From: Chitinophagaceae bacterium | GTDB lineage: Bacteria > Bacteroidota > Bacteroidia > Chitinophagales > Chitinophagaceae | Direction: 5' to 3' | DNA: 16,760 bases | Assembly (NCBI GenBank): GCA_025455245.1 | Contig: JALOMX010000005.1 | Location: forward strand, 1 to 16,760 | Shown here: piece by piece, positions 91 to 16,518 of the stretch | How positions within the stretch are numbered: the stretch's first letter is position 1 | Layout of the letters: each line of letters begins with the position of its first letter | The notes under the pieces: generated by a model | Seen by the model: the letters and a program-made list of their open reading frames with translations, nothing else | Told to the model about the DNA's origin: nothing | Databases searched by the model: none | Program-made: the position numbers and the translations under genes

Positions 91-684
91 TCATCCTGCC
101 GTTTTTTCTTTCGCCTTTTGCATTTGTAGCACGCGTTTGTAATCCTGCGGAAATACCTTGATAAAACGTCCGAGTTCACTATCAAAATCGCTGAGAATAA
201 AACGTGCCACTGAACTTTCGGTGTATGCAAGGTGCTTTTCGAGCATTCCTTTTACAAACATTGCATCTTCAGCATCACATTCTTCAAGGTTTACCATTTC
301 GGTATTGCAGTTTTCTGCAAAATTTCCATGCACATCGTACACGTATGCAATACCCCCGCTCATGCCTGCTGCAAAGTTGCGCCCGGTAGCGCCGAGGATA
401 ATGGCGCGTCCGCCGGTCATGTATTCACAGCCGTGATCGCCCACACCTTCCACCACGGTATTCACACCACTGTTACGTACGCAAAAGCGTTCACCTGCTT
501 TTCCGCGAATAAAGGCTTCGCCGCTTGTGCCGCCATAGAAGGCTACGTTACCAATGATGATATTTTCTTCCGCAACATATTTGGCTTCTTTGCTTGGATA
601 AATTATCAGCCTCGCACCACTAAGGCCTTTGCCAAAGTAGTCGTTTGCATCGCCTTCCGCCTTTGCCAAAGTAGTCGTTTGCAT
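91..684 (-). pseudogene. C-terminal fragment of gltB, separated by a frameshift
   Basis: This ORF encodes the C-terminal beta-helix (GXGXG) domain of the glutamate synthase large subunit, with the Gly-rich repeats typical of that domain ([45 protein letters not shown]). It is cut from the main gltB ORF by the 34-bp tandem duplication at 625-692. Its first eleven residues ([11 protein letters not shown]) are an out-of-frame reading of the extra repeat copy; from there on it matches the native frame. The ATG at 684 lies inside the duplication, so independent restart is conceivable, but nothing in the sequence supports it as a designed start. The domain has a structural role in GltS, so a product lacking it is probably impaired (inference). 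Confidence 0.85.
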
Positions 685-3600
685 CGCCTTCCAGCGTCAA
701 GGTTACCCCGTTGGTATTAAAAGCGCCAAAACTCTGTCCGGCAGTACCATTGAATTTAAACCTTATGGTATTGTCCGGCAGACCTGCCGATTTATACTTT
801 CGGGTTATTTCATTGGAAAGAATAGTTCCCGTTGTACGATCCGTATTAATTATGTTTAATTCTGCTTCAACGGGTATTCCATTATCAAGTGCCGGCTTTC
901 CCAGTTCCAGCAGTTTCCAGTCAAGCACGTTGCTAATGCCATGATCCTGCTGTTCGCTGCAATATAATGTCATGCCTTCGGGCGCAGGTTCTTTGTACAG
1001 GATGGGACTCAGGTCAAGCTTACTGTATTTCCAGTGGTTGATATCCTCTCTTGTTTCCAGAAATTGAACCTGTCCAACCATTTCATTGATGGTGCGGAAG
1101 CCAAGTTCTGCCATGATTTCGCGCAGTTCCTGTACAACAAAATGGAAAAAGTTTACAACATGTTCTGCTGCACCGGTAAATCGTTTGCGAAGATCAGGAT
1201 CCTGTGTTGCTACACCAACGGGGCAGGTATTCAAGTGGCACTTACGCATCAGGATACATCCTTCAACTACCAATGCCGCTGTGGCAATACCCCATTCTTC
1301 AGCTCCGAGAAGGGTGGCAATTGCTATATCCCTTCCGGTTTTCATTTGGCCATCGGCCTGCACCACCACTCTGCTCCGCAGCTTATTTTTTACCAGTGTC
1401 TGATGTGCTTCCGCCAATCCTAATTCCCATGGCAGGCCGGCATGTTTTATACTTGAAATAGGTGATGCACCGGTTCCTCCATCATGTCCGGAAATCAGTA
1501 CAACGTCTGCTTTTGCCTTGGTAACACCTGCTGCAATGGTTCCAACCCCTGCCTTACTTACCAGTTTTACATTTATGCGCGCACGGCGGTTGGCATTTTT
1601 TAAATCATAGATCAACTGAGCAAGATCTTCAATGGAATATATATCGTGGTGGGGTGGCGGAGATATAAGTCCTACCCCGGGAGTTGAGTGACGTACCCTT
1701 CCAATCCAATCATCCACTTTGAAGCCCGGCAATTGCCCGCCTTCGCCGGGTTTTGCCCCCTGCGCCATTTTTATCTGTAATTCATCAGCCTCTGTCAGGT
1801 AAAGGCTTGTTACTCCGAATCTGCCGCTGGCTACCTGCTTAATGGAGCTACGCATACTGTCTCCGTTGGGAAGCTGGTTATAGCGGGCTTCGTCTTCTCC
1901 ACCTTCGCCGGTATTGCTTTTGGCGCCTATGCGGTTCATCGCAATGGCAAGTGTGGTATGTGCCTCCCAACTGATGGAGCCAAAGCTCATTGCGCCCGTT
2001 GCAAAACGTTTCAGGATACTTTCTGCACTTTCTACTTCATCAATTGGTACAGATGGTTGAAGTTTTTTGAATTGCAGCAATCCGCGCAACGTTGCCGCTT
2101 TGGTACTTTGGTCATTTACAAGCTTTGCATACTTCTTATAAGTGCTGTAATCATTTTTTCTCGTACTATCCTGCAGCAGATGGATGGTTTGCGGGTTAAA
2201 CAAGTGGTATTCTCCTTTGCGCTTCCATTGATAAATACCACCTACGGGCAAACGGTCTACCGGTACTTCTTTGCGGCTGAAAGCAAAATAGTGCCGGGCG
2301 AGGATTTCCTTGGCAATTTCATCAAGGCCCATTCCTTCAATACGGCTTACAGCACCGGTAAAGTAAGTATCTACTACCTCTTTGTTGATCCCGATAATTT
2401 CAAATATTTGCGCTCCCTGGTAAGATTGCAATGTACTGATACCCATTTTACTGAATACCTTTAAAAGCCCATCACAAACAGCTTTAATATAATTCTTTTT
2501 TAATACTTCTGCATCAAGGTCGCTTTCAATTTTTCCGGAGATCTTCATATCGCGGATGGTGCTGAGCGCGAGGTAGGGATTAATGGCCGTGGCTCCAAAC
2601 CCAATCAGGCATGCAAAGTGGTGAACCTCCCACACATTACCTGCTTCAACTACAATACCCACCTTACCGCGATAGCCCTTGCGTATGAGATGATGGTGTA
2701 CGGCTGATGTGGCAAGCAGCATAGGAATAGGTGCATGATCACTGTCAATGGCGCGATCGCTTAAGATAAGCACTTCAAATCCATCTTCCACAGCATCTAC
2801 AGCGTATCGGCACAACCTGTCGAGCGCCTTTTTCATCGATCCGGGCTTCCCATCTGCACGGAAATAGCACTGTATTGTTTTTGCCTGAAAAATTCCCGTA
2901 TCAATACTTCTCAGTTTCTCAAGTTGATGATTGGTAAGAATGGGATGTTGCAATGCCACTATATGACAACTTAAAGGGTCCTCAACCAGAATATTTCCAT
3001 TATTACCTACAAATGCTGCAAGACTCATGACAAGTCTTTCGCGAATGGGATCAATGGGCGGATTGGTAACTTGTGCAAATAGTTGTTTAAAATAACTTGT
3101 GAGGTGTTGAGGCTGATCGCTCAATACAGCCAGCGGAACATCGGTTCCCATTGATCCGACCGGTTCTTTGCCATCTCTTGCCATTGGGGCAATGATGGTT
3201 TCGAGGTCTTCTGTTGAATACCCGAATGCCTTTTGATATTTGAACACCTGATCGTGTTCAAGATGTGTAAACATAACCCTTGGATCGGGTAACTCTTCCA
3301 GCCTGATTTTGTATTTATTCAACCAGTCTGCATACGGTTTTTGGCTGCAGATGGTTTGTTTCAGTTCCTCATCACTAATGATGCGCTCCTGCTCCATATC
3401 CACCACAAACATTTTTCCCGGCTGAAGACGTCCGTATTCTTTAACCATATTGGGTTGAATAGGCAACGTGCCGCTTTCCGATGACATTATGACCCGATCA
3501 TCGGTTGTAATACAGTACCTTGATGGACGCAAACCATTCCGGTCAAGGGTTGCCCCGATCATTTTACCGTCTGTAAATGAAATGGAGGCAGGTCCGTCCC

Positions 3601-4645
3601 AAGGCTCCATTAAGCATGCGTGATACTCATAGAAAGCCCGTTTTATGGGATCCATAGCGTCATTTCCATCCCATGCTTCCGGGATCAGCATCATCATTAC
3701 GTGCGGCAAGCTGCGCCCCGTCAGGGTCAGTAATTCAATCATATTGTCGAGGCATGCACTATCGCTTTGTCCTGCTGTTACAATAGGCAACAACAGGTCC
3801 ATTTCCTCACGGCTGAAGTAGGGGGAAGTAAAACCTTTTTCGCTAGACCTTAACCAGTTAATATTCCCTTGTAATGTATTGATTTCACCATTGTGCGCTA
3901 TGTAACGAAAAGGCTGTGCAAGTCTCCAACTTGGGAAAGTATTGGTAGCAAAACGGCTATGTACAAGTCCAAATGCACTTGTAAGGCTTTTGTTGGAAAG
4001 GTCAGGAAAATAACGGCGCACCTGCATACTTGTCAGTTGGCCTTTATACACAACGGTTTTGAATGAAAGAGAAGCAATATAGAAACCAATGGCATCTTGT
4101 TTAACTGTTTGTGCAATCAGGTGCGATGCGTAATTGCGCAGGACAAACAGTTTGCGTTCAAATGTTTGTGAATCGGGAATGTTGGATGGCATTGCAATGA
4201 AAACCTGTTCCATTTCAGGCTCCACGGACAGGGCAGTTTCTCCAATGTCGCTTTTATTTACAGGGACCTTTCTATAGCAAAGAATTTCAAGGCCAAGTTT
4301 CTCTGCAGCCCGGTTGAATATTTCCCTGCATGCCTCCCTTAAAGCAAGGTTTTGCGGAAAAAATATTACTCCAACACCATACTGACCTGCCTGCGGAAGG
4401 TGTACACCCAGTTTTATACATTCTTCATAGAAAAACTCATGCGGCACCTGAATCATGATGCCTGCACCATCTCCGGAGTTTTCTTCACAGCCGCATGCAC
4501 CGCGGTGCTCCATATTTTCAAGCACGGTTAAGGCATCGCTGATATGTTGATGACTCTTAATCCCTTTAATGCTTGCAACAAATCCAATACCGCACGCATC
4601 GTGTTCAAACGCCGGATTGTAAAGACCTTGCCCGCTTTCCAACAT
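620..4645 (-). CDS. gltB: Glutamate synthase large (alpha) subunit, frameshifted near its 3' end
   Basis: Glutamate synthase converts glutamine and 2-oxoglutarate into two glutamates, with electrons delivered by a small subunit (GltD) or ferredoxin. I start at the ATG at 4645 rather than the TTG at 4654; this puts the amidotransferase nucleophile at Cys18 (HDACGIGF) after a short propeptide, as in the family. An N-terminal class II glutamine amidotransferase domain, the central domain and the FMN synthase domain follow in order ([23 protein letters not shown]). The 3Fe-4S cysteines are in [15 protein letters not shown] (about 1198-1260). The ORF then reaches the 34-bp tandem repeat, leaves frame after DANDYFGKG, adds about 12 foreign residues and stops. 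The present product is 1341 aa; with one repeat copy removed it would be about 1506 aa, the normal family length. It lies 0.55 kb downstream of ilvC in the same direction. Confidence 0.93.
625..692. repeat. 34-bp perfect tandem duplication inside gltB
   Basis: Bases 625-658 and 659-692 are identical and directly adjacent. As 34 is not a multiple of three, the duplication shifts the reading frame of gltB on the minus strand. The unit encodes, in the native frame, the residues around [11 protein letters not shown] at the start of the C-terminal beta-helix. Deleting either copy fuses the two gltB ORFs cleanly, which shows that the duplication is the sole cause of the break. Confidence 0.95.
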
Positions 4646-4827
4646 GCAATTCAAATTTTGAAATAAGTTAAAAAATCAAATCTTCTTTTCAAAATGGCTA
4701 AGCAAGCGGATAAAATTACTAAAAAAAATTTCGACTTCTTCCGGATTGTTTAAAAAACGAAAGCCTGAAATGAAATTTCTTCAATAATCTTTCCCTTTAA
4801 TGGTCATCATGTGTTCATTTTTTTATG

Positions 4828-5192: not shown

Positions 5193-6248
5193 CTATTTTG
5201 CAGGTTGATTTTCAGGACGAAGACTGCGGACCGTTTTTCCGGCTTGCCACATCTCGCTTTCACGAAGTTCTTTCAGTTCTTCTTCCAGTTTGGCGCGGTA
5301 ATCCGGCTGACTGTTGCTGTCAATGGAGCGCTGAGATTCTTTGCCTGTGGCAACGCTTTCGTACAACTCTTCAAAAACAGGAGCTGTGGCATCGCGAAAC
5401 TTTTTCCACCAATCAAGCGCACCACGCTGTGCGGTGGTAGAGCAGTTTGCGTACATCCAATCCATACCGTTTTCAGCCACAAGCGGCATGAGGCTCTGCG
5501 TCAATTCTTCCACCGTTTCATTAAATGCCTCGGAAGGAGAATGTCCGCGTTTGCGCAATACATCGTACTGTGCGGCAAATATGCCCTGTATGGCGCCCAT
5601 TAAGGTGCCGCGTTCTCCGGTGAGGTCGCTGAAAACTTCCTTTTTAAAATCGGTTTCAAAAAGATAACCACTGCCTACTGCAATGCCGAGTGCAATTACA
5701 CGCTCCCATGCACGGCCGGTAGCATCCTGATAAATGGCAAAACTGCTGTTAAGTCCGCGGCCTTCGAGAAACATGCGGCGCAATGATGTACCGGAGCCTT
5801 TGGGGGCAACCAGGAAAACATCTACATCGGCAGGCGGAATAATTCCTGTTTGCTCATTGAAAGTGATACCAAAGCCATGACTGAAATACAATGCCTTACC
5901 GGGCGTAAGGTGTTTCTTAACGGTGGGCCACAATTCAATTTGTGCAGCATCGCTCAGCAGGTAGCAAATAATAGTTCCACGCTGCAAAGCTTCATCAATG
6001 GAAAACAATGTTTCACCCGGTACGAAACCGTCTTTTACAGCCTTTTCCCAACTTTTTGAATTTTCCCTTTGACCAACAATAACATTGATGCCATTGTCTT
6101 TTTGATTCAATGCCTGACCCGGTCCCTGAACTCCGTAACCGATGACAGCAACAGTTTCATTTTTTAAAACTTCCTGCGCTTTGCTCAAAGGAAACTCTTC
6201 ACGGGTTACTACATTTTCTTCAGTACCTCCGAAATTTAATTTTGCCAT
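5193..6248 (-). CDS. ilvC: Ketol-acid reductoisomerase, fungal-type
   Basis: IlvC catalyses the Mg-dependent isomerisation and NADPH-dependent reduction of 2-acetolactate and 2-aceto-2-hydroxybutyrate, the second common step to valine and isoleucine. The 351-aa protein has the nucleotide-binding loop GYGVQGPGQ (37-45), SHGF with His124, VAPKGSG with Lys150, metal-binding Asp208 and Glu212 (SDLTGERG), and the knotted C-terminal part with NETVEE (243-248) and CSTTAQRGALDW (269-280). Compared from memory, residues such as GQALNQKDNGINVIVG, GHSPSEAFNETVEE and VRSLRPENQ are much closer to the yeast mitochondrial enzyme than to the HAHALN-type enzymes of most bacteria. It follows ilvN after 152 bp of low-complexity spacer and is the last branched-chain gene of the run. 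Confidence 0.96.
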   Translation of the reverse strand: MAKLNFGGTEENVVTREEFPLSKAQEVLKNETVAVIGYGVQGPGQALNQKDNGINVIVGQRENSKSWEKAVKDGFVPGETLFSIDEALQRGTIICYLLSDAAQIELWPTVKKHLTPGKALYFSHGFGITFNEQTGIIPPADVDVFLVAPKGSGTSLRRMFLEGRGLNSSFAIYQDATGRAWERVIALGIAVGSGYLFETDFKKEVFSDLTGERGTLMGAIQGIFAAQYDVLRKRGHSPSEAFNETVEELTQSLMPLVAENGMDWMYANCSTTAQRGALDWWKKFRDATAPVFEELYESVATGKESQRSIDSNSQPDYRAKLEEELKELRESEMWQAGKTVRSLRPENQPAK

Positions 6249-6400: not shown

Positions 6401-6991
6401 TCACATGGAAAACACTTCTTCCGCCTGATTGAGATACTCATTTTCCTTAACTGCTTCGCCGGGCTCAATGGATTCAAACTCCTGCAACTTTTCGTGGAAG
6501 CCCTTACTGCTTTTGATGATGGCAACACGGGCGCTGCGTACAAATTCAATTAAACCAAAAGGCTCAAGTACCTTGATCAGTTTTTCGGTTTCTTCACGGT
6601 GACCGGTTGTTTCAAATACGGTGTAATCATTACGTATAACTACAGCGTTGGCACCGTGCTCACGTAAAAGCCTTTCTACCAAAGCTTTTTCAGCGATTTC
6701 GCTTGTAGGAACCTTATACAAAGCCATTTCCTGCCAAATTATTTCATCATTGGTATTGTAGTATGCCTTCAGTACTTCCACCTGCTTTTCTATCTGGCGA
6801 ACAAGCTTTTGTACAACCTCTTCCGTTTCATCTATTACAATATTGAAACGGTGAATCCCCGGGATTTCAGAAGGCGATGTATTCAGACTGTCAATATTTA
6901 TTTTCCTTCTGGAAAAAATAATGGCAATCCTGTTGAGCAAACCAATGTGGTTTTCGGTATAAACAGTAATGGTATATTCTTGCTTTGTCAT
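6401..6991 (-). CDS. ilvN: Acetolactate synthase small (regulatory) subunit
   Basis: This is the regulatory partner of IlvB; it activates the catalytic subunit and usually confers valine feedback inhibition. The 196-aa protein begins with an ACT domain (about 6-78) containing ENHIGLLNRIAIIFSRRKINIDSL. Gly17 and Asn32 appear to match the valine-contacting Gly14 and Asn29 of E. coli IlvH, so feedback inhibition is probably kept (inference). A second ACT-like domain follows (about 85-165), then an acidic tail of some 30 residues that makes it longer than the 163-aa E. coli IlvH. The start is the ATG 12 bp after the ilvB stop, which indicates co-transcription and probably coupled translation. Confidence 0.95.
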   Translation of the reverse strand: MTKQEYTITVYTENHIGLLNRIAIIFSRRKINIDSLNTSPSEIPGIHRFNIVIDETEEVVQKLVRQIEKQVEVLKAYYNTNDEIIWQEMALYKVPTSEIAEKALVERLLREHGANAVVIRNDYTVFETTGHREETEKLIKVLEPFGLIEFVRSARVAIIKSSKGFHEKLQEFESIEPGEAVKENEYLNQAEEVFSM

Positions 6992-7003: not shown

Positions 7004-8743
7004 TTATTTCAAACGAATTTCGCCAACTCCGCAACCTTGTGGTACCATGGGAAATACATTATTTTCTTTACCAACAATAACTTCAAGGAGGTAGGCGCCA
7101 CTATGGTCAAGCATTCTTTTAAGAGCTGATTTCAAATCGGTACGGGCTACTACCTTTTCCCCTTCTATATGATAGCCTTTTGCCACCTGAACAAAGTCGG
7201 GGCTTGTAATGTCAACAAAAGAATATCGCCTGTCATTAAACAATTCCTGCCATTGGCGCACCATGCCAAGAAAATTATTGTTCAGAATAATAATTTTTAC
7301 ATCTGTTTGATATTGCATAATGGTGCCTAATTCCTGAATGGTCATTTGAATACCACCGTCACCTGCAATGGCCACCACCGTTCTGTCAGGTGCACCGAAT
7401 TTTGCACCAATGGCTGCGGGCAGGGCAAAGCCCATTGTGCCAAGTCCGCCGGAGGTAACATTGCTTTTGCTTTTTGTAAATTTTGCATAACGGCTTGCAA
7501 CCATTTGGTGCTGTCCAACATCGGTTACAATAACCGCATCTCCACCTGTCAATTCATTCAAAGCATCAATTACTTCAGCCATATTCAATATATCGCCACC
7601 GGGGTTGAAATCTTTTGAAATGACCTCTTTGTATTCCTCTTTTGCAAAATCCCTGAACCGCTGAAGCCATGCACTGTGGTCGCGAGAGATTATTTTTTCT
7701 GTCAACAATGGAAGCGTTTCCTTGCAATCGCCCCAAACCGGTACCGTTGTTTTTACATTTTTATCAATTTCTGCAGGGTCAATATCAAGGTGTACCACTT
7801 TAGCCTGCCTGGCATATTTATCAAGTCTTCCTGTAACCCGATCATCAAATCTCATTCCAATGGCAATCAAAACATCACATTCATTGGTAAGCACATTCGG
7901 ACCATAATTTCCATGCATACCCAGCATACCAACATTCAGGGGATGACCGGTTGGTAATGCACTTAGTCCCAAAAGTGTCCATGCTGCAGGAATGCCGCTT
8001 TTTTCAATAAAGGTTTTAAATTCTTCCTCAGCTTTGCCAAGGATTATTCCCTGTCCAAAAATAACATAAGGGCGTTCTGCTTTATTGATCAAATCAGCGG
8101 CAGCATCGATGTATTCCTGTCTTACAATCGGTTTGGGACGATAGCTGCGAATATGCCTGCAAGGTGTATATCCTATAAAAGCTACCTGTTGAATCTGAGC
8201 ATTTTTTGTAATATCGATCAGAACCGGTCCCGGGCGCCCGCTTCTTGCAATATAAAATGCTTTGGCAAGGGTATCGGCAATTTCGCTGGCATCAGTTACC
8301 TGATAATTCCATTTGGTAACCGGAGTAGTAATGTTTATTACATCCGTTTCCTGAAATGCATCAGTTCCAAGTAGATGCGCAAATACCTGCCCCGTTATGC
8401 AAACGAGAGGAGTGCTGTCTATCATGGCATCTGCAAGACCGGTAACAAGGTTTGTTGCACCGGGTCCGCTTGTGGCAAAAACAACCCCTACTTCCCCTGA
8501 AGTACGTGCAAAACCCTGGGCTGCATGTATGGCGCCCTGTTCATGGCGAACAAGTATGTGCTCTAATTGATCATTATAGTCAAATAGTGCATCATATATT
8601 GGCATGATTGCACCTCCGGGATATCCGAAAATTGTTTTTACTTTTTCGGATATCAGCGATTTCAAAACAATTTCAGAACCTGTAATCAGCGACACTTTCT
8701 GCTCTTTTGTTTCGGTAGGAGGTTGCTGAAGAGTAGCTTCCAT
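7004..8743 (-). CDS. ilvB: Acetolactate synthase large (catalytic) subunit
   Basis: IlvB is the thiamine-diphosphate and FAD enzyme that condenses two pyruvates to acetolactate, or pyruvate with 2-oxobutyrate, the first committed step to Val, Leu and Ile. In the 579-aa protein the catalytic Glu68 sits in RHEQGA, the FAD-domain motif RFDDRVTG is at 299-305, and the ThDP/Mg motif runs from GDGG (461-464) to LNNN (487-490). TSGPGATNLVTG (91-102) is also typical. It begins 17 bp after the ilvD stop and ends 12 bp before ilvN, so the three genes form one tight transcription unit. A 15-residue polar N-terminal extension (MEATLQQPPTETKEQ) precedes the first conserved segment; I keep the first ATG. 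Confidence 0.97.
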   Translation of the reverse strand: MEATLQQPPTETKEQKVSLITGSEIVLKSLISEKVKTIFGYPGGAIMPIYDALFDYNDQLEHILVRHEQGAIHAAQGFARTSGEVGVVFATSGPGATNLVTGLADAMIDSTPLVCITGQVFAHLLGTDAFQETDVINITTPVTKWNYQVTDASEIADTLAKAFYIARSGRPGPVLIDITKNAQIQQVAFIGYTPCRHIRSYRPKPIVRQEYIDAAADLINKAERPYVIFGQGIILGKAEEEFKTFIEKSGIPAAWTLLGLSALPTGHPLNVGMLGMHGNYGPNVLTNECDVLIAIGMRFDDRVTGRLDKYARQAKVVHLDIDPAEIDKNVKTTVPVWGDCKETLPLLTEKIISRDHSAWLQRFRDFAKEEYKEVISKDFNPGGDILNMAEVIDALNELTGGDAVIVTDVGQHQMVASRYAKFTKSKSNVTSGGLGTMGFALPAAIGAKFGAPDRTVVAIAGDGGIQMTIQELGTIMQYQTDVKIIILNNNFLGMVRQWQELFNDRRYSFVDITSPDFVQVAKGYHIEGEKVVARTDLKSALKRMLDHSGAYLLEVIVGKENNVFPMVPQGCGVGEIRLK

Positions 8744-8760: not shown

Positions 8761-10446
8761 TTATTTATCAGTTACACAACCTTCAGCGGCTGTTGATACC
8801 TGTTTTGCATATTTGTATAGTACTCCGGATGTTGCCCGCGGCTCAGGTGCTTTCCATTCAGCCTTCCTCAAAATCATTTCTTCATCCGTTATGTGTACCG
8901 TCATTTTATTTTCAATAGCATCAAGGGTAATGATATCTCCGTCCCTTACAAGTGCTATTGGGCCACCTGCCATAGCTTCGGGTGTAATATGCCCTACTAC
9001 AAAACCGTGAGTGCCGCCACTAAATCGACCATCGGTTATCAATGCCACCGATTTGCCTAAGCCCGCACCAATAATGGCAGATGTAGGTTTGAGCATTTCA
9101 GGCATACCCGGTGCCCCTTTAGGGCCAACATACCTTATCACAACAACATCTCCGGGTTGAACCTTTCCGTTTTTTATTCCATCAATCAGTTCAAATTCTC
9201 CATCAAAAACCCTTGCAGGCCCCTGAAATTTTTCACCTTCTTTACCTGATATTTTAGCAACACTTCCCCCCGGTGCAAGATTCCCGTAAAGTATCTGCAG
9301 GTGTCCGCTGGGCTTTACCGGGTTTTCCAAAGGATAAATTATATCCTGGCTTTCAAAATCAATTTCCTGAATGTTTTCAAGATTTTCTTCCAACGTCAAT
9401 CCGGTCACAGTCAGGCATTCCCCATGAAGAAATCCTTTTTTCAGCAGATATTTCATGACAGCAGGAACACCACCTTTGTCATGAAGGTCTTTCATCAGGT
9501 ATTTTCCGCTTGGCTTCAGGTCCGCAAGTACCGGTGTCCGGTTGCTGATAGCCTGTACATCATCTTGTGTTAGGGTAATTCCCACACTATGGGCCATGGC
9601 TATAAGATGTAATACAGCGTTGGTTGATCCTCCAAGGATGGTGATGATGGTTAACGCGTTTTCAAAAGCCTTACGCGTCATAATATCACGCGGCTTAATA
9701 TCTTTTTCAAGTAACAACTGCATGTACTTTCCGGCTGCCTTACATTCTTCCTGTTTTTCATTGCTGAGTGCAGGGTTGCTTGAAGAGTAAGGGAGGCTCA
9801 TGCCCAATGCCTCAATGGCAGACGCCATTGTGTTAGCGGTATACATACCACCACAGGCACCGGGTCCCGGGCAACTGTTTTTAATTATACCCAGAAAATC
9901 ACCCTCATCAAGTTGGCCCGCAATTTTTTGTCCGAGGGCTTCAAATGCTGAGATAATATTCAGGTCCTGACCTTTATATTTTCCGGGAGCAATAGTGCCA
10001 CCGTAAACCATTATGGATGGCCTGTTTAAGCGTCCCATAGCAATGATGCATCCCGGCATGTTTTTATCGCAACCGGGAACAGCAATGATACCATCGTAAT
10101 AATGAGCTCCGCAAACCGATTCTATGCTATCGGCAATGAGGTCGCGGCTCACAAGCGAATAGCGCATGCCATCGGTTCCGTTGCTTATGCCATCACTAAT
10201 GCCAATGGTATTGAAAATAAGGCCAACCAGATCATTATTCCATACACCCTGCTTGATTACCCGTGCAAGGTCATTCAAATGCATATTACAGGTATTGCCA
10301 TCGTATCCCATGCTTACAATACCAACCTGTGCTTTTTGCATATCTTCTTCCGTGAGGCCAATACCGTATAACATGGCCTGTGCTGCGGGTTGCGTTACAT
10401 CTTGCGTAAGTGTTCGGCTGTATTTATTGAGTATTACGTTGGACAT
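8761..10446 (-). CDS. ilvD: Dihydroxy-acid dehydratase
   Basis: IlvD dehydrates the dihydroxy acids made by IlvC to 2-ketoisovalerate and 2-keto-3-methylvalerate. The 561-aa length is normal for the IlvD/Edd family. Three iron-sulfur cysteines are visible: Cys53 (DGNTCNMH), Cys126 (PGCDKNMPG) and Cys198 ([14 protein letters not shown]), the pattern of [2Fe-2S]-type dehydratases. The C-terminal part has [20 protein letters not shown] and [11 protein letters not shown], both standard. It is the first gene after the putative attenuator: the terminator stem ends 28 bp before the ATG, so its transcription and that of ilvB, ilvN and ilvC should depend on read-through. Confidence 0.97.
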
Positions 10447-10473
10447 TGATAAATTTTCAGTATTGGTTAAAAC

Positions 10474-10507
10474 AAAAGACCCGCCTCATTCGGAGGCGGG
10501 TCTTTTT
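10474..10507 (-). terminator. Intrinsic terminator (attenuator) just upstream of ilvD
   Basis: Bases 10474-10487 and 10493-10506 form a perfect 14-bp stem around a 5-nt loop, with a G+C-rich core (gacccgcctc / gaggcgggtc). On the minus strand it is followed by TTTTGTTTT, a good U-tract. It lies 17 nt after the stop of the leader ORF and 28 nt before the ilvD ATG, in the middle of a co-directional gene run. A terminator in this place makes sense only if it is regulated. It could work on the plus strand too, but no plus-strand gene leads into it. Confidence 0.9.
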
Positions 10508-10548
10508 ATAGATTTCTGTTTTTGTCAAATAAAAATCAAATCGCCTCC
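10492..10548 (-). promoter_or_regulatory. Alternative antiterminator pairing of the ilvD attenuator
   Basis: On the minus strand GGAGGCG (plus coordinates 10542-10548, the Gly27-Gly28 codons of the leader ORF) is exactly complementary to CGCCTCC (10492-10498) in the 5' arm and loop of the terminator. The 7-bp pairing excludes formation of the terminator core. A ribosome stalled at the Thr/Val codons upstream would leave GGAGGCG free; a ribosome that reaches the stop codon would cover it. The complementarity is seen directly; the mechanism is inferred from the classical leader-peptide model. Confidence 0.75.
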
Positions 10549-10626
10549 ATGTATAACAGGAATGGTATTGACCACCACATTGGTGGTAGTAATTTTAATG
10601 GTAATCCTGTTTGTTGTTGTACGCAT
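10525..10626 (-). CDS. ilv leader peptide (33 aa), Thr/Ile/Val-rich
   Basis: A short ORF starts with ATG at 10626 and ends with TGA at 10525-10527. Its product has 33 residues, of which 8 are Thr, 7 Ile, 4 Val and 1 Leu. The control region is TTTNRITIKITTTNVVVN (residues 3-20), with runs ACA ACA ACA, ACT ACC ACC and GTG GTG GTC. Such a composition is expected of a leader peptide that senses charged tRNA-Thr, tRNA-Ile and tRNA-Val, and it matches the downstream genes, which make Ile and Val (Thr being the precursor of Ile). The near absence of Leu codons fits the fact that leuA and leuB lie upstream of the leader. It begins 65 bp after leuB. No clear promoter is visible in those 65 bp, so the leader may be transcribed from the leuA promoter. 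Confidence 0.82.
   Translation of the reverse strand: MRTTTNRITIKITTTNVVVNTIPVIHGGDLIFI
10571..10587 (-). other. Hairpin within the leader-peptide control codons
   Basis: On the minus strand the Thr codons and the following Val codons form a perfect 7-bp stem (ACCACCA / TGGTGGT) with a 3-nt loop. It could act as a polymerase pause signal that keeps transcription and translation of the leader in step, a role known for the 1:2 hairpin of enterobacterial attenuators (inference). It could also be a by-product of the ACC and GGT repeats. Confidence 0.5.
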
Positions 10627-10642: not shown

Positions 10643-10691
10643 GACAAAACCAGGCGTACGAACAATATTTTTATTAAAAGAGCTAAAAAAA

Positions 10692-11807
10692 TTAAATTAT
10701 GGTTGATTTTCTGTATTCAATATTTGTCCTGTTTACCCCACCCGGAATTTTCCCGGAAACATAATCGCTGATCAGGTCGCCAACGGTTGAGGTAAAGTAA
10801 AAATTGACGGGGTCAATATCTTTGGTTACAAAGCCATTGATTAGTGTCCAGTCAACCGCTTCTCTCACCACATCTGCTTCTGTATGCAAACCAAAATGGT
10901 CGAGCATAAGTGCTGCACTTAGGATTGAACCGATCGGATTGGCGATATCCTGTCCTGCTGCCTGTGGATAAGAACCATGAATCGGTTCAAATAATGCTGC
11001 CTTGTCGCCAATCGAAGCACTTGGTAATAGTCCTATTGAGCCTGACAATACACTGCCCTCATCGCTCAGGATATCTCCAAACATATTTTCTGTAAGGATT
11101 ACGTCAAATTGTGAAGGGTTCAGGATGAGTTGCATTGCGGCATTATCTACAAACAAAAAATCGGTTTTTACATCAGGATAAGCCGCTGCAATTTCCTGTA
11201 CTGCTTTTCGCCATAATCTGCTGCTGTCGAGGACATTTGCTTTATCAACCAGGGTCAGTTTTCCTTTCCTCGTCATGGCGGCTTTGTAGGCAAGATGCGT
11301 TATTCTTTCAATTTCTGTTCTTGTGTAGATGCATGTATCTTTTGCCCAACTGTTATCTGTTGCTGTTTCCTTTTCCCCAAAATATATTCCTCCGGTAAGT
11401 TCACGATAGATGATAAAATCGACCTTTTCAAGGAGTTTCGGTTTGAGAGGGGATAAATGTGCAAGGTTGGAATATGCTTTTACAGGCCTTACGTTGGCGT
11501 ATAATTGCAATGCCTTACGGATGCTTAAAATGCCTTGTTCGGGTCTGACTTTTGCATTGGGGTCGTTGTCGTACTTTGGATGACCAACGGCTCCAAATAA
11601 TACGGCATCAGCACTCAGGGCAGAATCAATAGTTTGCTGCGGTAATGCCTCGCCCGTTGCATCAATGGCTTCTGCTCCAAGCAATGCACGTTCGTAAATA
11701 AACTCATGATTGAAGGTTTCTGCAATGGCATCCAATACCCGTACCGATTGTTTGGTTACCTCAGGCCCAATCCCGTCTCCGTAGATTAATGTTATCTTTT
11801 TGACCAT
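10692..11807 (-). CDS. leuB: 3-isopropylmalate dehydrogenase
   Basis: LeuB oxidises and decarboxylates 3-isopropylmalate to 2-ketoisocaproate with NAD, the third leucine-specific step. The 371-aa protein has the family motifs in order: YGDGIGPEV (9-17), substrate arginines Arg97, Arg107 and Arg135 (RELTGGIYFGE), DKANVLDSSRLWRK (188-201), metal ligands Asp221, Asp245 and Asp249 (NMFGDILSDE), and the coenzyme loop FEPIHGSYPQAAGQDIANPIG (273-293). Seeing EPIHGS and the DIAN signature makes isocitrate or tartrate dehydrogenase unlikely. It starts 99 bp after leuA on the same strand. The LeuC/LeuD isomerase that should act between LeuA and LeuB is not encoded in this window. Confidence 0.96.
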   Translation of the reverse strand: MVKKITLIYGDGIGPEVTKQSVRVLDAIAETFNHEFIYERALLGAEAIDATGEALPQQTIDSALSADAVLFGAVGHPKYDNDPNAKVRPEQGILSIRKALQLYANVRPVKAYSNLAHLSPLKPKLLEKVDFIIYRELTGGIYFGEKETATDNSWAKDTCIYTRTEIERITHLAYKAAMTRKGKLTLVDKANVLDSSRLWRKAVQEIAAAYPDVKTDFLFVDNAAMQLILNPSQFDVILTENMFGDILSDEGSVLSGSIGLLPSASIGDKAALFEPIHGSYPQAAGQDIANPIGSILSAALMLDHFGLHTEADVVREAVDWTLINGFVTKDIDPVNFYFTSTVGDLISDYVSGKIPGGVNRTNIEYRKSTII

Positions 11808-15615: not shown

Positions 15616-16518
15616 ATGCAGCAAACATATAATGAAAAAAATAAGGATATTCTGATTTGGGTAAACGATAAGCTTGTTCATCGGAATGAGGCAAAGGTAT
15701 CTGTATTCGACAGTTCGGTTCAGGGTGGAGATGCAGTATGGGAAGGATTGAGGATATACGACAAACGAATCTTTTGTTTTGATGAACACCTTGACAGGTT
15801 ATATGCATCGGCTAAGGCGCTTGCATTTGCGCACGTACCCGAACGATCATTTATAAAAGATGCTGTAAAACAAACGCTTGTAGCCAATGGTATGTTTGAT
15901 GGCGCACATATTCGCCTTACCCTGACCCGCGGAGAAAAGATTACTTCGGGTATGGACCCGCGGCTAAACCAATCGGGTAGCTGCCTTATTGTTCTTGCAG
16001 AATGGAAACCCCCTGTTTACAACAACGACAAGGGTATTTCGCTTGTAACCTCCAATATCCGTAGAAACAGTCCGCAGACCCTTGATTCACATATTCACCA
16101 TAACAACCTTCTCAATAACATCCTTGCGAAAATTGAAGCTAATCATACCGGTGCAGATGACGCGCTTATGCTGGACCTGAATGGCTTTGTGGCGGAAACC
16201 AATGCGTGCAATGTATTTATGATTAAAAATAAGGAATTGCACACCCCCTTGCCTGTAGCCTGCCTGCCGGGTATTACCCGGGGGCTGATGATACAACTTG
16301 CCCGTCAGCTTGGCATTACGGTCCTTGAACGAAACATCAGCCTTGTGGAGATGTACAACGCCGATGTGGTGTTTACCACAGGCACAATGGGTGAACTGAC
16401 CCCTGTGTGGGAAATAGATAAACGGCAAATTGAAAACCGGGGGAAAGATGGTTTACTCGAAATGCTGCAGGTTGCTTTCAGAAAACAGACGGAACTGTAT
16501 GGAGAGCCAATAATTTAA
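15616..16518 (+). CDS. Class IV (IlvE-like) aminotransferase-fold protein, catalytic lysine apparently missing
   Basis: The 300-aa protein has the fold-type IV pattern: VSVFDSSVQGGDAVWEGLRIY (28-48), RLTLTRG (100-106), VAETNACNVF (192-201) with Glu194 that should bind the PLP ring nitrogen, LPGITR (217-222) and TTGTMGE (254-260) for the PLP phosphate. The length is close to that of E. coli IlvE (309 aa). The expected Schiff-base lysine lies about 13-15 residues before the EA of the following helix; here that stretch is LDSHIHHNN (156-164), with His159, His161 and His162 but no lysine. All other PLP contacts are kept. It may be a non-canonical PLP protein or have lost transaminase activity. 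If it is active, branched-chain amino acid or D-amino acid transamination are the options. It lies 49 bp after the sulfotransferase-like gene. Confidence 0.85.
   Translation: MQQTYNEKNKDILIWVNDKLVHRNEAKVSVFDSSVQGGDAVWEGLRIYDKRIFCFDEHLDRLYASAKALAFAHVPERSFIKDAVKQTLVANGMFDGAHIRLTLTRGEKITSGMDPRLNQSGSCLIVLAEWKPPVYNNDKGISLVTSNIRRNSPQTLDSHIHHNNLLNNILAKIEANHTGADDALMLDLNGFVAETNACNVFMIKNKELHTPLPVACLPGITRGLMIQLARQLGITVLERNISLVEMYNADVVFTTGTMGELTPVWEIDKRQIENRGKDGLLEMLQVAFRKQTELYGEPII

Follow-up and report, generated by a model that had tools for sequence, protein, structure and literature searches.

What separates the leucine genes from the isoleucine/valine genes in a Chitinophagaceae bacterium, and could it control the latter? 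The window, by which we mean the whole stretch of 16,760 nucleotides that we analysed, carries on its minus strand, in this order, leuA, leuB (10692..11807), a leader element, ilvD (8761..10446), which is the first gene 3′ of the element, ilvB, encoding the acetolactate synthase large subunit (7004..8743), ilvN, encoding the small subunit (6401..6991), and ilvC (5193..6248). Each of the six gene products has an NCBIfam match above the curated cut-off. A first-pass annotation of this DNA had proposed that leader-peptide attenuation controls the ilv genes. This proposal gained support from the conservation of the element in related genomes and from covariation in both of its competing stems. We consider it very probable, from comparative sequence analysis, that the element in the window and its relatives in the family represent a ribosome-mediated transcription attenuator of ilv genes.

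Leader ORF, terminator and antiterminator in the window

The leader peptide ORF (10525..10626, minus strand) runs from an ATG at 10626 to a TGA ending at 10525 and encodes MRTTTNRITIKITTTNVVVNTIPVIHGGDLIFI. Reading the minus strand confirmed what the first-pass annotation had reported: 33 codons, of which 19 specify threonine (eight), isoleucine (seven) or valine (four), and almost no leucine codons, the exact number being one.

Downstream of the ORF, folding predicts an intrinsic terminator stem-loop (10474..10506, minus strand), AAAAGACCCGCCTC-CGAAT-GAGGCGGGTCTTTT, in which segments 3 and 4 form a 14-bp stem with the loop CGAAT. Its energy of -25.3 kcal/mol was matched by none of 200 shuffles, and a U-tract, TTTTGTTTT (10469..10477, minus strand), overlaps the end of the stem. 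The stem and U-tract were annotated correctly, except that the stem starts 18 nt past the stop codon, not 17. The antiterminator also agrees with the earlier reading. Its 5′ strand, segment 2 (GGAGGCG, 10548-10542, minus strand), occupies codons 27-29 and is an exact 7-bp complement of segment 3 (CGCCTCC, 10498-10492, minus strand), the sequence that antiterminator and terminator have in common. For the antiterminator segment, the folding energy is -15.9 kcal/mol, a value that one of 200 shuffles reached, and the whole segment of 175 nt has a folding z of -5.4, with none of 200 shuffles as good.

Within the control codons there is a candidate pause hairpin, ACTACCAC-CAAT-GTGGTGGT (10571..10590, minus strand; -10.3 kcal/mol), which 3 of 200 shuffles equalled or bettered. 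Threonine codons 13-15 make up most of its 5′ arm. Since ACT ACC ACC pairs with GTG GTG GTC, the threonine run may serve the hairpin.

The element therefore has, at the sequence level, the parts that characterize an attenuator: a short ORF, a run of Ile/Val codons, an intrinsic terminator and a mutually exclusive antiterminator. From these parts we infer translation of the leader, stalling, termination in vivo and the direction of the response. RNA polymerase would either start at a promoter immediately before the leader, the option favoured by most relatives, or enter by read-through from leuB, and a ribosome would translate the ORF during its transcription. With ample charged Ile and Val tRNA, the ribosome would reach the end of the ORF and mask segment 2; segment 3 would then pair with segment 4, and transcription would stop before ilvD. 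If isoleucine or valine (or, in the window, perhaps threonine) were short, the ribosome would stall in the control codons and leave segment 2 free to capture segment 3 before transcription reaches segment 4, so that ilvDBNC would be transcribed. The earlier statement that a ribosome at the stop codon covers the antiterminator segment holds only roughly. In the window, 14 nt separate the end of segment 2 from the stop, and such a ribosome would thus mask it only partly. The corresponding distance in relatives is often about 4-10 nt.

Elsewhere in the window, a branched-chain aminotransferase-like gene (15616-16518, plus strand; below the curated cut-offs) lies apart from the ilv run. A gltB-like gene, named by reading, contains an exact 34-nt tandem duplication (625-692), at which the frame switches between the ORFs 620-4654 and 91-684. 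It reflects either a mistake in assembly or a genuine frameshift.

Conservation of the element in Chitinophagaceae

Searching 59 neighbourhood genomes for IlvD gave matches in 32, and 30 loci were read. The same element occurs in 17 of the 30, between leuB and ilvD or, at loci with an intervening ilvE, between leuB and ilvE. From the alignment of these 17 elements (A2) we built a covariance model, R1. Its consensus structure has no stems beyond the leader hairpin and the terminator; of 17 predicted pairs, 7 are changed on both sides. At a threshold of E <= 0.001, R1 has a match in 159 of the 294 same-family genomes searched (67 of 101 genera), with one match per genome among the matches listed. 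The 135 family genomes without an R1 match include some without ilvD. Among 26 family genomes with a close IlvD, at least 19 have the element among the matches listed. The other seven, G004, G005, G007, G023, G025, G031 and G033, have no listed match, and the contig of G005 starts just before ilvE. R1 also matches 40 of 248 genomes in an order sample and 8 of 295 in a class sample, of which 38 and 3, respectively, belong to the same family. The nearest named IlvD records stem from metagenome-assembled genomes (MAGs), one assigned to Puia dinghuensis and two to Chitinophagaceae, and point to Chitinophagaceae as the probable family. The element is present at these three loci too, with 87, 64 and 41 bits (L087, L088 and L089). 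The family thus seems commonly to carry an amino-acid sensor of the classic E. coli type. Two weak R1 matches (L231 in G029, and L234) were rejected, as on reading they look like plain gene-end terminators.

Gene context was determined for 142 loci (80 fetched stretches and 62 others), a subset of the matches in which one genome is counted twice. Neighbours were assigned by proximity from a set of nine reference proteins, within the stretch examined, so a gene outside that set may intervene. At 129 loci, leuB is upstream of the element and either ilvE (86) or ilvD (43) is downstream; one locus has leuA and ilvE in these places, and at 12 one or both neighbours were undetected. The attenuator would explain why many family genomes conserve a short ORF and a terminator between leuB and the ilv genes. 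At one locus (L062 in G013, ~1501-1625, minus strand), a family element precedes a gene resembling that for the small acetolactate synthase subunit (32.4 bits against a cut-off of 68); leuB was looked for upstream of this element and none was detected.

The position directly 3′ of leuB is also where an ordinary intrinsic terminator could end the leu transcript. The ilv genes would then be transcribed independently, split from leu by the terminator, and the small ORF would be incidental. Against this reading, there is covariation between segment 2 and the terminator arm. The 2:3 pairing is not part of R1, with which we made two further alignments: A3, of 80 rows and no R1 training genome, and A4, of 61 distinct rows, part of which came from the training set. 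The 2:3 cells are paired in 91.5% (A3) and 89.2% (A4) of cases, and none of 500 shuffles reaches the covariation score in either alignment. All six slid registers pair less than the true one in both alignments; in A4, cells changed on both sides number 9 and 15 in registers -3 and -2, versus 8 in the true register. Covariation is also seen in the stored structure, i.e., the terminator together with the leader hairpin, where none of 500 shuffles did as well on any of the five measures. The alignment of relatives that the first-pass annotation had named as a check thus yields covariation in both the 2:3 and the 3:4 stems.

Individual loci illustrate the pairing. At L025, L187, L215 and L223, GGAAGTGG occurs with CCACTTCC, and Gly-Gly becomes Gly-Ser; at L017 and L168, GGAAGYG is paired with CGCTTC. 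In L227, segment 2 is in a different frame and is still complementary to the arm. The automated search for segment 2 ended at the leader stop; by reading the sequence, we found that in L075 and L230 segment 2 lies past this stop, with its complement to the arm kept. In these three loci, the RNA pairing is retained where the peptide is not.

We also folded the nascent RNA that would be clear of a stalled ribosome. It has a mean energy of -16.6 kcal/mol, versus -8.5 kcal/mol with the leader part shuffled. At least five arm bases are paired in 128 of 128 real folds versus 89.4 of 128 shuffled ones, which is poor discrimination. The family counterpart of the leader hairpin is rich in G-U pairs. 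We rejected it as a strongly conserved element, because its conservation is only moderate (3-column slides, 0.252 vs 0.331); codon repeats would give the same near-equal scores of 3-column slides.

A script found a leader ORF at 139 of the 142 loci, of which at least one (L231) is probably spurious. The following statistics refer to the 128 unique elements that have a leu gene upstream. Their leaders are 22-42 codons long (median 33), start with ATG in 125 cases and consist of 25.0% Ile, 16.2% Val, 6.8% Leu and 4.8% Thr, so that Ile and Val together account for 41% of residues. Threonine is absent from 19 leaders and occurs once in 52, twice in 36, three times in 17, four times in two and five times in one; the eight threonine codons of the window are unique among the 128. 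We therefore dropped threonine-specific control as a property of the family. The conserved codon runs anticipated for relatives exist for Ile and Val, but Thr is not a feature of the family.

The distance from the last Ile/Val run to the GG-type codons, which encode segment 2, is exactly four codons in 100 of the 125 scorable leaders, and this spacer is frequently P-A-x-H. A ribosome's footprint extends ~12-13 nt past the A-site codon. Given this footprint and the four-codon spacer, a ribosome starved at the last Ile codon would just clear segment 2.

The leader of the family evolves as a coding sequence, judging from 27 pairs of similar leaders in which every locus was used once. Changes at codon positions 1, 2 and 3 number 96, 70 and 129, and 75 of 166 codons with a single change are synonymous, against an expected fraction of 0.269 (p = 3.4e-7). 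This mode of evolution also speaks against an incidental ORF beside a plain terminator. It could, however, be expected if the ORF encoded a functional small hydrophobic, membrane-like peptide, with the Ile/Val run kept for the sake of the protein: the common core, IIIVVVIIIPALHGGG, has the look of a hydrophobic segment, and its amino-acid sequence is conserved. On the other hand, threonine occurs within the run in the window, the leader ends ahead of the GG in L075 and L230, and in L227 the GG is read in a different frame. Codon choice is also biased relative to the downstream genes (ATT for Ile, 0.69 vs 0.43; GTC for Val, 0.30 vs 0.07), and leaders outside the family fit their pathways, with His before hisG and Thr/Ile before aspartate kinase. 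We regard a purely protein-level explanation as highly improbable, while a leader peptide with a dual role, regulatory and functional, is possible.

Sequences upstream of the leader

The consensus described for Bacteroidota promoters is TAnnTTTG at -7 with TTTG near -33 (PMC7366714), and the -7 box is reported to span -12 to -5 (PMC9723704). We counted such motifs in the 123 of the 128 leuB-leader gaps that measure 40-400 nt. Of these gaps, 100 contain TANNTTYG (shuffled mean 17.6), 45 contain TANNTTTG (shuffled mean 11.3) and 34 contain TTG-N16-23-TANNTTTG (shuffled mean 1.9). TANNTTYG lies within 60 nt of the ATG in 97 of all 128 elements, and in 81 it ends 15-20 nt upstream of the ATG. Taken together with the reported box position of -12 to -5, this spacing would place the transcript start ~11-16 nt before the ATG.

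Most of the relatives examined have a Bacteroidota-type -7 box ahead of the leader, and in these an ilv transcription unit probably begins with the element. Its placement after leuB was annotated correctly, but it does not appear to be solely internal to a leu-ilv operon. Moreover, an ilv transcript that starts at a promoter-like sequence upstream of both leader and terminator would have to cross the terminator, which is at odds with a terminator that merely ends the leu transcript. We therefore think it very unlikely that the terminator serves leu alone, and prefer an attenuator that acts on ilv.

In the window itself, AGCTCTTT (10677..10684, minus strand) is similar to the -33 region of the family, AGTTCTTT, and a degenerate -7 box, TACGCCTG (10658-10651, minus strand), matches the family box in position. 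Scoring of the 110 nt before the ATG does not support a promoter here: the best score is 1.36, shuffles average 1.97 and 145 of 300 equal or beat the window. The median score in the family is 27.9, a figure that is inflated because the matrix was derived from those same loci. Since the window has no recognisable -7 box, we have to suppose that transcription of its element either enters from leuB or starts at a promoter that departs from the consensus. The element in the window appears somewhat atypical of its family, in its threonine codons, its longer tail past segment 2 and this lack of a recognisable box.

Relation to known leaders and to leaders outside the family

The E. coli ilvGMEDA leader (ilvL) likewise combines an Ile/Val-rich leader peptide with a U-tract terminator before ilv genes, and its run ...VVVIIIPP... 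compares with ...VVVIIIPA... in many leaders of the family. However, ilvL belongs to a different phylum, whereas the family element lies between leuB and ilvE/ilvD and, unlike ilvL, mostly behind a Bacteroidota -33/-7 promoter with a predicted mRNA start ~11-16 nt before the ATG. In a search with R1, ilvL was the ninth-best match (26 bits, E 0.013 in 51 kb), which codon runs and terminators alone could yield. The codon order GTGGTGGTGATTATTAT-CC of E. coli ilvL (L274:423-579) is common to many family leaders.

Genes of this kind are controlled by T-boxes in Firmicutes, so a leader that binds tRNA or another ligand (a T-box or riboswitch), with no ribosome as the sensor, could be imagined here too. 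Yet for the window and 11 other loci no such Rfam family was matched up to E = 1, and the consensus of 17 sequences holds the leader hairpin and terminator alone; of the alternatives considered, we give this one the least credence. The Rfam search that had been suggested earlier gave only sub-threshold matches for the attenuator in the window. The best is to RF00506 (Thr_leader), at 10538-10470 with 36.8 bits (E 9e-4; curated threshold 55 bits), and spans the terminator and the last leader codons. Family relatives with a listed RF00506 match score 31.9-32.4 bits, and L086, outside the family, scores 38.0. Thr_leader is associated with thr genes, the family element with ilv genes. Neither the window nor the 11 other loci have an Rfam match at threshold, and the Bacteroid-trp motif (RF01692) is absent from their matches.

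Bacteroidetes are reportedly mentioned in the abstract of Vitreschak 2004. Naville and Gautheret 2010 state that, before their own case in Firmicutes, no leader-peptide system was known beyond Proteobacteria and Actinobacteria (PMC2965389). Actinobacterial ilvB leaders, as described in PMC1262725, also have an ORF rich in Ile/Val/Leu and a terminator before ilv genes. That paper describes their mode of regulation as unclear, and ORFs and terminators overlap; by contrast, the family element has a defined, covarying antiterminator. The first-pass annotation had left open whether such leaders were described for Bacteroidota. Leader-peptide attenuation in this phylum is in fact already in print: a report on Flavobacterium psychrophilum mentions ‘strong clues’ of it upstream of amino-acid biosynthesis operons, as well as several structured 5′ elements without Rfam hits, including ones upstream of hisG and pheA (PMC9723704). 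The term ‘ilv’ is absent from the main text of that report, and its attenuation section gives no alignment or pairing. A transcript map of B. thetaiotaomicron describes sORFs reminiscent of leader peptides (PMC7366714). Our literature search found no description of a Chitinophagaceae ilv attenuator family, its promoter or its pairings. The kind of attenuator is thus known, and its presence in Bacteroidota was noted before; this ilv family is one that we did not find described. With it, Bacteroidota gain a well-defined, alignable family of ilv attenuators, none of which reaches an Rfam threshold at the loci searched.

Classical attenuation requires a ribosome close behind RNA polymerase, and the family could therefore be a natural reporter of transcription-translation coupling in a group whose ribosomes are reported to fail to recognise Shine-Dalgarno sequences (PMC9976891).

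In a class sample of 22 IlvD loci outside the family (L247-L268), a short ORF rich in Ile/Val/Leu/Thr and a terminator occur upstream of ilvD or ilvE at eight, a count made without a chance control and from which a long-spaced ORF at L249 was discounted. We then compared leader-arm complements with those of shuffled arms at 18 loci, 17 of them outside the family, chosen for a visible leader and terminator. The complement has p <= 0.03 at 12 of these chosen loci, and at six of the 12 (L030, L255, L266, L267, L270 and L271) it lies at or beyond the stop. The remaining six (L082, L083, L085, L248, L252 and L254) have a leader and terminator and no significant contiguous 2:3 complement.

A broader reading, to which we give somewhat less than an even chance, is that leader-peptide attenuators occur class-wide, for ilv in several families of Bacteroidia and for his and thr in others. 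A leading ribosome would then control RNA polymerase throughout Bacteroidota despite ribosomes that are blind to Shine-Dalgarno sequences, with initiation ~11-16 nt from the transcript start. The element in the window would have lost its promoter and become an internal Thr+Ile+Val valve in a leu-ilv operon.

Two of the 12 loci with a complement precede genes of other pathways, named by NCBIfam models above cut-off. In L084 (~1501-1614, minus strand), the leader MKFIQLHHHHFHTCSQARS has four successive His codons and is followed by a terminator and then hisG; it is likely a histidine attenuator outside the family. In L086 (~1501-1626, minus strand), the Thr/Ile leader MTINNTIITTIITTGIKDGGR has an exact 9-bp 2:3 complement and is followed by an aspartate kinase gene.
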